Shown one piece after another: positions 17,263 through 19,268 of a stretch of 64,000 nucleotides of DNA. The notes beneath the pieces were generated by a model, which saw nothing but the letters and a program-made list of their open reading frames with translations, was not told where the DNA came from and made no database searches. The stretch is from Isoetes taiwanensis (lineage: Eukaryota; Streptophyta; Lycopodiopsida; Isoetales; Isoetaceae): contig JAJEKV010000001.1 in the NCBI GenBank assembly GCA_021234155.1, forward strand, positions 2,752,007 to 2,816,006, read 5' to 3'. Position 1 is the stretch's first letter; each line of letters starts with the position of its first letter. The position numbers and the translations under genes are program-made.

Positions 17263-17450
17263 TTATCTTCTTATCATTATACGAAGATAAATTCAATTGT
17301 CAAAACCAGCAAGCTAACTAAGAGAGATAAAGAGAAGAGAAAGCATACAACTGAAAAAAAGCCACATCTGGGCATCTCCACTAAAAACCAATAACAAGAG
17401 TAGCCACATCTGGGCATCTCCACTAAAAACCAACAACAAGAGCCACAATG
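17263..17450 (-). repeat. Repeat downstream of the tyrosine recombinase, distal copy with palindromic core
   Basis: Matches 17939-18085 in the same orientation. At its plus-strand left edge is TTATCTTC (17263-17270), a 12-bp spacer, then GAAGATAA (17283-17290), a perfect inverted pair. The right part has an extra tandem copy of the GCCACATCTGGGCATCTCC unit. In the recombinase's reading direction this is the far copy of the pair. Confidence 0.8.
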
Positions 17451-17938
17451 CTAACCAACAACAAGAGCAGCTGGGCATCTCCATTAAAAACCAACAACAA
17501 GAGCCCAAAGCTGATCACAATACATCTGGATGGGCAACAACAAAAGTCACAGAGTTACAATCGGAGAGCCACACATTTACCACAATGTAAATGCTGCTCG
17601 ACTCAAAACCATACACAAAGCCACACATTAGCCACTAGGCTAATGCTGCCCAAGCCATAAAGCTCCTCAACAGCCTGCACAACAGAGAAATCCAACCAAG
17701 TAAATGGATCAGAAGATGCAATGTTGAGAAGGTACAAAGGTCTAATCCAACACTTGGGCAAACTCACAGAAATAGCAGGTGGGTGGTGGGTGGATGGGTG
17801 ATTGCATGAGAAAGACGATCTACGGCAAACTAGAGGAAACATAGATGAGCTGATGAGAAAGGGAAGAGGAAGAATAAAAAGGCCGTCAAAACCTATAACT
17901 GTCAAAACTAACTCATGCAATGGTTTTGATAATTACAT
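17451..17938. other. Unique segment between the two recombinase-linked repeats
   Basis: About 490 bp between the repeat copies. No gene was recognised. In a Ngaro/PAT-like split-repeat layout this would be the A2 segment, but no matching A1 was found upstream of the recombinase within the window. Confidence 0.4.
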
Positions 17939-18085
17939 TTATCTTCTTATCATTATACGAAGATAAATTCAATTGTCAAAACCAGCAAGCTAACTAAGAG
18001 AGGTAAAGAGAAGAGAAAGAACAAAAACTGAAAGAAAGCCACATCTGGGCATCTCCACTAAAAACCAACAACAAGAGCCACAATA
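17939..18085 (-). repeat. Repeat downstream of the tyrosine recombinase, proximal copy with palindromic core
   Basis: TTATCTTC (17939-17946), the same 12-bp spacer TTATCATTATAC, and GAAGATAA (17959-17966) open this copy. It then follows the distal copy through CAAAACCAGCAAGCTAACTA to ACAACAAGAGCCACAAT. It starts about 20 bp beyond the recombinase stop codon. Confidence 0.8.
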
Positions 18086-18105
18086 CTGAAAAATAGAGGC
18101 AGCAG

Positions 18106-19165
18106 TCAAGGGCTACCGGAAGGGGCAGAGGAAGCCAACAAAAGGGCCAAAGCACTAGGGTCTTTCGGACCTAAACCTAAGGAGCGGAAAACAAGCAGTT
18201 GTTGCTGGATCGAAGGCAGAACATAACCATCTTTGGCTGAGTCAGAGCACCAACGACCATGAGCCTTGAAAATTCTATCCGGGACATTCAAAGCAGTTGC
18301 TGAAGTGGCTCCCCCTCTTCTTGCCGAATGGGTTCCAAAGACACTTGCATCTTCACCAATGGCAGCAAGGCAATGCTTGAACCAAGTTCTCAAAGTGGAA
18401 TAAGAAACAGGCTTTCTCCTCAGAAAACAACCATGACGCGTCACACGAACACCCCTAATCAAATGGCCACCAGCCACACCATCCACTCCAGAATAATTCC
18501 CCAGCTTCAACAGTCCTTCCAAAAGGCCAACGGGGCAAAAAGGGCCAGAGAGCCGGGCAATAGAGACCCAAGCAGCAACACCCATCTGATCTGTCTTAGA
18601 GGAACGAATAAAAAGGCTAGCATGGGTATCCAAAATCAGAATCTCATTCCAAAGCAAAGATAGCAGCTCCTTATTGCGCAAGAAAGCAACAAAAGCAATA
18701 ACAATAGGTGTACATCTCATAATGTCAAAAAGAGAAGCTGAAGGAGAAGCAAATTGTTCAAAAAGCTTGCGGACTATATGAGGAAGGATGGATTGTTTCT
18801 TTTTAAGCAAAGGAGTGGACAATCTCTTAGCCACATCTCGAGCAAGGCTAACTAGAGGATGATCTGTACGTTTGCGTAACCAGCAAGAAGGTGATGGAAA
18901 CCAATAGCAGCAATAGTCGTGTTGACACAAGCTAATGGATTAGAAAAGGAAGTGAGAAGCAATGTGAGGAAGAGGCAAACCGTGGAGGACTCTGCAGGTA
19001 GGAAAATCAGGTTCTTAGACTTGCACCAATTCTTAAAAAGGTTCCAAGCATGCTGATAACCCCTCAGAGTACTTTTAGATCTAAAAGACACCAAAAACTC
19101 TTGAAAACAACTCTTCAACTTAAGCAACTCATCATCACCATCCAGCGTTAGCCAAAACTCTGAAG
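18106..19165 (-). pseudogene. Tyrosine recombinase (Crypton/DIRS-type), one frameshift
   Basis: Two overlapping minus-strand frames give an almost full-length tyrosine recombinase of roughly 350 residues. The N-terminal frame, read from about 19165, has a SAM-like core-binding region with FRSKSTLRGYQHAWNLF. It overlaps the second frame (18930-18106) near 18880, where one indel is needed. The catalytic domain has every signature residue: Arg in FLRNKELLSL, Lys in SSKTDQ, HSARRGGATS (His-x-x-Arg), HGRW, and Tyr in AKDGYV. In the 274-codon frame these are R85, K112, H201, R204, H224, W227 and Y236. No reverse transcriptase or RNase H accompanies it. An (ATC)n tract precedes it directly, so its true start is unclear. 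It could be a Crypton, the recombinase of a DIRS/Ngaro element, or a domesticated gene. The frameshift lies in a CG/CAG-rich spot and may be a consensus error. Confidence 0.82.
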
Positions 19166-19167
19166 AG

Positions 19168-19268
19168 ATGATGATGATGATGATGATGATGATGATGATG
19201 ATGATGATGATGATGATGATGATGATGATGATGATGATGATGATGATGATGATGATGATGATGATGAT
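19168..19268 (+). repeat. (ATG)n microsatellite, about 33 units
   Basis: Perfect trinucleotide tract. On the minus strand it reads as poly-isoleucine at the head of the recombinase frame, which is not believable as protein. It may mark the 5' limit of the element or an insertion-time repeat. Confidence 0.97.

Follow-up and report, generated by a model that had tools for sequence, protein, structure and literature searches.

A locus in the quillwort Isoetes taiwanensis very probably holds an inactive, incomplete copy of an abundant tyrosine-recombinase retrotransposon that is PAT-like by structure

The window analysed here, a stretch of 64,000 nucleotides of the Isoetes taiwanensis genome, carries on its minus strand a tyrosine recombinase (YR) with the full catalytic residue set, as a preliminary description of the sequence had claimed, followed by a series of direct repeats. 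The features of the locus are the following:

17263 to 19168, minus strand: very probable YR retrotransposon copy of 1906 bp that lacks the 5' portion (YR remnant, B1, A2, spacer, B2), delimited by homology to the closest copies
18852 to 19167, minus strand: N-terminal (core-binding) part of the YR, from the open reading frame list, homologous to the N-terminal part of continuous YR reading frames elsewhere
18939 to 18106, minus strand: catalytic part of the YR, a 277-aa frame, from the open reading frame list and alignment
17939 to 18091, minus strand: split direct repeat B1, 86-88% identical to B1 and B2 of copy L009
17921 to 17984, no strand: 64-nt near-palindrome across the B1/A2 junction, self-complementary at 54 of its 64 positions; putative recombinase binding region
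17932 to 17938, minus strand: 7-nt core at the B1/A2 junction, ATGTAAT on the element strand, the first bases of A; presumed crossover region, named from other copies of family 1
17809 to 17938, minus strand: split direct repeat A2, 78% identical to A2 of L009 and lacking an A1 partner in the window copy
about 17349/17391 to 17514, minus strand: diverged ~52-nt tandem units from the beginning of B, adjoining B2
17263 to 17401, minus strand: split direct repeat B2, from the comparison of copies
19168 to 19268, no strand: (GAT)n microsatellite, identified from the sequence, outside the element at the point where homology stops

Numbered from 18939, the catalytic residues are R88, K115, H204-x-x-R207, H227, W230 and Y239, the same residues that were previously counted from 18930 as R85 to Y236. 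The core-binding N-terminal region and the single indel described at the same time were also recovered, the N-terminal part lying upstream in a different frame, which implies one frameshift near 18876. All six aligned members of the YR family have the R, K, H, R, H and Y, and one of the six (L024) has lost the catalytic W. A profile of these six members matched Cre in the PDB (E = 3.2e-4) over its N-terminal and middle part (43-234), a single-sequence Pfam scan of the window YR gave a weak Phage_integrase match below the cut-off (E = 0.028), and a scan of viral_contigs with the YR alignment returned no relative. An AlphaFold2 model of the 277-aa frame alone had a mean pLDDT of 36.9 and was not used.

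Other repetitive sequence occurs elsewhere in the window. Pieces of non-LTR retrotransposons lie at 38012-40197 on the plus strand (an endonuclease domain, 1.6e-12, followed by a reverse transcriptase, RT, 9.1e-22) and at 47734-48648 on the minus strand (RT, 6.9e-20), and the window edge at 63649-63999 (plus strand) holds an RT fragment (3e-24) which we take, from its look, to belong to a Ty3/Gypsy element. A frame at 11265-11660 (plus strand) has a weak caulimovirus coat domain match below the cut-off (E 0.0076), a similar translated stretch, GVTPxNESCWIGIFTPYSLIYTVRKVPRLWGMQVQ, recurs at 9120-9452 and 45507-45899 (both minus strand) and is therefore a dispersed repeat, and a (TAAGA)n microsatellite of ~95 bases occupies 16193-16287.

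A search of the whole genome (1,658,258,908 bases in 1110 contigs) with the YR frame gave at least 147 matches, or at least 133 loci once fragments were merged, both counts being lower bounds from the best candidates scored; the multi-copy paralogues that the preliminary description had proposed to look for are thus present. The listed matches, the least similar at 39% identity, are spread over 72 contigs, some of which are tens of megabases long, so the sequence is not contamination, an explanation that had earlier been left open. With its invariant catalytic residues, its Cre match and this number of genome matches, the window YR match exceeds chance. Several of the YR copies have long reading frames with no stops.

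Of the 23 best YR matches other than the window, we examined 20, each with 10 kb of surrounding sequence. An RT lies upstream of the YR on the same strand in 15 of the 20, three further copies (L012, L020, L022) retain remnants of RNase H and methyltransferase without RT, and the remaining two (L018, L019) showed no RT-family sequence upstream of the YR; the recombinase family is consequently not "stand-alone", as it had first been called. L019 (G000:C1018:32391500-32401499) contains a ~2.1-kb internal tandem duplication at 97%. Starting from the RT-RNase H-methyltransferase region, 69 matches were listed from 9480 first-look candidates, 66 of which were scored, and a listed YR lies 259-1026 bp downstream on the same strand at 37 of the 65 merged RT loci and on the opposite strand at none; because both lists give the best matches only, little weight attaches to the 28 RT loci for which no YR was listed, or to the 96 of 133 YR loci for which no RT was.

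The order Gag-RT-RNase H-methyltransferase-YR was found in L009, L014, L015 and L016, and where both ends of an RT-bearing copy could be located, in four cases, its length is 5.5-6.2 kb and split direct repeats bound it. The fuller copies read, 5' to 3', A1, Gag (which has a CCHC knuckle), RT, RNase H, a Dam-like methyltransferase, YR, B1, A2, spacer and B2, so that RT and tyrosine recombinase are seen together in one element. For example, in L016 Gag matches zf-CCHC (4.5e-5) and the RT matches RVT_1 (2.7e-17), whilst RNase H is assigned from its position together with an RVT_3 match below the cut-off (0.04). The RT profile matches Ty3 Gag-Pol (7q5b, 1.6e-23), and a scan of viral_contigs with the RT alignment found no relative. 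In the region after RNase H, Pfam Dam (best 0.0021, weak) and PHROG_111 methyltransferase (best 2.1e-4) were each matched by three of the five members scanned at E up to 10, two of the five gave no Dam match, and a comparison of this region with the PDB gave no methyltransferase match.

The preliminary description had called the recombinase Crypton/DIRS-like. A Crypton-like element would be a stand-alone DNA transposon in which the YR moves the element as DNA. Cryptons do use a YR, and upstream of the window YR, on its strand, the tested stretch 18877-23000 contains no RT of the family. This earlier observation of a missing RT holds for the window copy and fails for the family. Close copies carry Gag-RT-RNase H-methyltransferase before the YR, all inside the outer repeats, which refutes a Crypton for the family, since Cryptons lack an RT; furthermore, the homology of the window copy breaks off abruptly at 19168, within a unit that extends further in other copies, and one copy (L014) precisely lacks an intron-like segment. 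We therefore consider a Crypton extremely improbable. A domesticated plant recombinase gene, the other possibility raised previously, is less probable still and close to negligible: the long, stop-free YR frames of several copies would suit it, but the family consists of dispersed repeats that have element ends and empty sites, and nothing points to domestication of the window copy, which is frameshifted and incomplete.

The ends of the retrotransposon could be defined by comparing copies, as the preliminary description had suggested, through split direct repeats and shared termini. The repeats follow the pattern A1...B1A2...B2, complete in L009, L014 and L015 and partial in other copies. In these three, A1 (150-159 nt) stands at the 5' end and is repeated behind the YR as A2, and B1, immediately before A2, is repeated at the 3' end as B2; A1/A2 and B1/B2 identities are 98.7% and 98.5% in L009, 98.7% and 100% in L014, and 98.7% and 98.5% in L015. 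Elements start with ATGTAATTG in family 1, to which the window copy belongs, and with ATGAGATTT/ATGGGATTT in family 2, and their 3' ends read GAAGATAA or TTTTGAGAA. An ATGNNAT core stands at the 5' end in six of the seven 5' ends compared (the exception being L011), and the 3' end falls at the expected place in ten of twelve (exceptions L011 and L023). On its 5' side L011 (G000:C1029:7855500-7865499) has an extra palindrome-like stretch before A, and its 10 kb contain several joint-like repeats, perhaps from nested or tandem elements.

As L014 and L019 lie inside dispersed repeats, their joined flanks could be searched for empty sites. Three of the four L014 sites examined (of 40 matches) align without a gap over 200 nt with 151 identities each, though these three look similar and some may derive from others among them, and the fourth has 155 of 202 identities; the three L019 sites examined (of 40 matches) have 193, 185 and 182 of 200 identities. 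None of the seven aligned sites has a gap within ~35 nt of the join, so insertion of these two copies, one from each of two families, neither duplicated nor removed target sequence. Such insertion is known for YR elements. The outer ends of L019 give a clean empty site despite its tandem duplication. Dispersed copies with RT, defined ends and empty sites bear out the earlier suggestion of a multi-copy, DIRS-related mobile element in plant DNA; we regard the family as real, abundant and probably recently active.

Read against this plan, the window copy retains most of the YR, B1, the joint, A2, partial B units and B2. Its homology to the closest copies runs from 17263 to 19164-19168 with none beyond, whereas the mutual alignment of L009 and L014 reaches 4.0 kb ahead of the YR catalytic part, ~3.7 kb past the window's limit; RT, RNase H and methyltransferase are absent here because the 5' part is missing. 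We take this part to have been lost, its never having been inserted being less likely; the 5' break adjoins the (GAT)n microsatellite. Downstream of the YR, a 91-nt direct repeat, 95% identical, links 17260-17350 with 17936-18026, and the window's B1 and B2 are 94.4% identical over 142 nt. This divergence of 5.6% compares with 0-1.5% in L014, L009 and L015, and the insertion is therefore probably older. Judged by what its sequence retains, the copy is inactive and unable to act on its own. Tandem units of ~50-58 nt that repeat the beginning of B directly precede B2 in L021, L022, L019 and the window, and their number varies among copies.

In both families a palindrome of ~64 nt forms the B1/A2 joint; each of its sides has an outer arm, GGTTTTGA(C/G)A, and an inner arm, TTTATCTTC, and ~7 nt lie between. 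The break falls on one side in family 1, GAAGATAA^ATGTAATTGTCAAAACC, and on the mirror side in family 2, GGTTTTGAGAA^ATGAGATTTATCTTC, yet ATGNNAT remains with A in both, and we infer that this core is the crossover site. The 7-nt core of the window copy was recognised in this way, from other family 1 copies in which B2 ends just ahead of the core and A1 begins with it. The family 1 joint pattern had 351 matches with up to two mismatches, in a count where both halves of one palindrome may be scored separately, against one in the reversed control, and 62 of the matches listed are exact; the family 2 pattern had 15 matches and its reversed control none. The split repeats would allow circularisation of the cDNA, with the palindromic B1/A2 sequence as the B-A joint of the circle. 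The YR would then recombine the 7-nt core of this joint (ATGNNAT) with genomic DNA in such a way that the core stays with the A end.

L014 and L009, 97% identical, differ by 516 nt between Gag and RT that are absent from L014. The flanks of this gap align with no mismatch in 60 positions, and one of three equal placements of it reads GTAATG...GACCAG (GT-AG). By homology to L016 the missing segment contains the zinc knuckle and the end of Gag, and without it L014 has a single open frame of 815 aa that fuses the N-terminal part of Gag to RT-RNase H-methyltransferase. The gap is such as would be left by splicing of an RNA intermediate. The L014-type junction sequence occurs at five loci and its reversed-pattern control at none: L014 itself (C1049), two loci on C889 and two on C1064. 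The C889 pair share one left flank and are therefore one insertion that was duplicated later, their left flank differs from that of L014, and the left ends of the C1064 pair were not found. For the unspliced donor, the pattern was found at 11 loci and not at all in the control.

A chance deletion between Gag and RT, with no splicing involved, could produce the same gap, and the remaining large gaps tested between copies are indeed not GT-AG. Among 13 large-gap comparisons, GT-AG without mismatch was found in L009/L014 alone; the L013/L014 gap has the same donor with no AG acceptor and 10 mismatches in 60, and gaps in L012, L013, L019, L011, L027 and L021/L026 against L024 gave no splice fit. 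Against a chance deletion, the borders of the L014 gap fit GT...AG and the frame is kept; the junction is found at five loci, among which L014 and the C889 pair differ in their left flanks; and a lineage at 41-42% RT identity has a donor and an acceptor in matching phase. Taken together, these observations make a chance deletion very unlikely, and splicing remains our reading of the gap.

This second lineage (L029-L031), 41-42% identical in RT, is organised alike, with Gag followed by RT-RNase H, methyltransferase and then the YR. All three copies have a donor GAAG|GTAA(G/A) at the matching Gag position and, in the same place ahead of RT, an acceptor TTTCAG|AATGT, chosen among several candidates per copy for its position where the RT frame begins; its phase is that of L015, L016, L021, L024 and L028. 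Among the three, the YR is open over its full length in L030 only. A B-like pair measures 22 nt in L029 and 32 nt in L031, and no A-type repeat was found in the stretches examined.

A CAG| acceptor precedes the YR in both lineages (CAA in L009), and no YR start methionine is conserved among the 12 copies examined; from these two observations a Gag-YR splice is likely. No Gag-YR spliced copy was found: the corresponding pattern had 24 matches with up to three mismatches against three in the reversed control, and none of the six of these 24 that were examined is the element. At the methyltransferase-YR joint of L014, L016, L020, L024, L027 and L028, a GTGAGT lies ~20-30 nt before the CAG acceptor of the YR, too close for an ordinary intron. 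The element would move through spliced or unspliced RNA. Gag would be translated from the unspliced form, splicing from the phase-1 donor inside Gag to the acceptor at the RT start would yield a Gag-Pol fusion, and the similar acceptor before the YR probably yields Gag-YR.

Taken as a whole, the comparison makes us highly confident that the window holds an inactive copy, without its 5' part, of a tyrosine-recombinase retrotransposon of the order DIRS that is PAT-like by structure. The preliminary description had named grouping with known plant DIRS elements with a nearby RT as an outcome that would count against its proposal; within this genome the RT that neighbours the YR in related copies does place the element, by structure, in such company. 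The PAT-like placement is an assignment by features, which the split direct repeats and the weakly matched methyltransferase-like domain fit. With PAT, the TOC elements and kangaroo the Isoetes element shares split direct repeats and RT, RNase H, a putative methyltransferase and a YR, a likeness in structure; it differs from them in that its YR is the last open reading frame and in the same orientation, its Gag and RT can be joined by splicing, its B1/A2 joint is a two-armed palindrome and its host is a land plant. DIRS1-like elements have the same RT, RNase H, putative methyltransferase and YR domains and a Ty3-related RT, but the Isoetes element ends in split direct repeats, and no inverted terminal repeats were seen by eye when the ends ATGTAATTG.../...GAAGATAA and ATGAGATT.../...TTTTGAGAA were compared.

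The PAT-like label could be wrong if the family were an independent or Ngaro-like branch of YR retrotransposons. The order Gag-RT-RNase H-YR and repeats of the A1...B1A2B2 kind are shared with Ngaro-like elements, a passage of PMC9210276 describes Gag-RT-YR order and split direct repeats in Ngaro, and PAT-like elements are not monophyletic according to a section of Ribeiro et al. 2019 (PMC6681497). Yet the Isoetes element has a weakly matched Dam-like domain after RNase H, and in the relevant part of PMC3266345 Ngaro and VIPER are described without Dam. Such a branch is unlikely, whilst keeping some real weight, and we retain the PAT-like placement.

YR retrotransposons are little documented in land plants. 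The portion of a 2011 survey of 274 genomes that treats their distribution (PMC3266345) counts streptophytes among the groups seemingly without DIRS1-like elements, whilst a 2019 review has DIRS present in plants, and for this reason we claim no first record. PAT-like families appear in passages on relatives of Chlamydomonas (PMC8226300) and on Ectocarpus (PMC12477816), an automated annotation of the fern Ceratopteris reports in one of its parts 361 DIRS copies covering 45,453 bases (PMC6890710), and the PlantRep database, in the section concerned, includes a DIRS category (PMC9035001). A literature search (titles and part of the results) gave no account of YR retrotransposons in Isoetes or other lycophytes, and the word DIRS is absent from the main text of the I. 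taiwanensis (PMC8566536) and I. sinensis genome papers.

With slightly less than even confidence, we suggest that land plants, at least the quillworts, may harbour a YR retrotransposon branch of their own that is long-lived and recently active, which would make Gag, Gag-Pol and Gag-YR by alternative splicing from one conserved donor, and whose palindromic B1/A2 joint would hold two mirror-image recombination sites, different families using opposite ones and keeping the ATGNNAT core on the A end. A YR retrotransposon that is abundant in a lycophyte, and that has open frames as well as clean empty sites, partly fills the streptophyte gap and provides a plant in which to study an insertion chemistry that is poorly understood. 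The element is also relevant to the origin of the plant ALOG transcription factors, for which part of PMC3537659 proposes a DIRS1-type recombinase as source, and the Gag-RT splice would provide a simple, testable route to both Gag and Gag-Pol.
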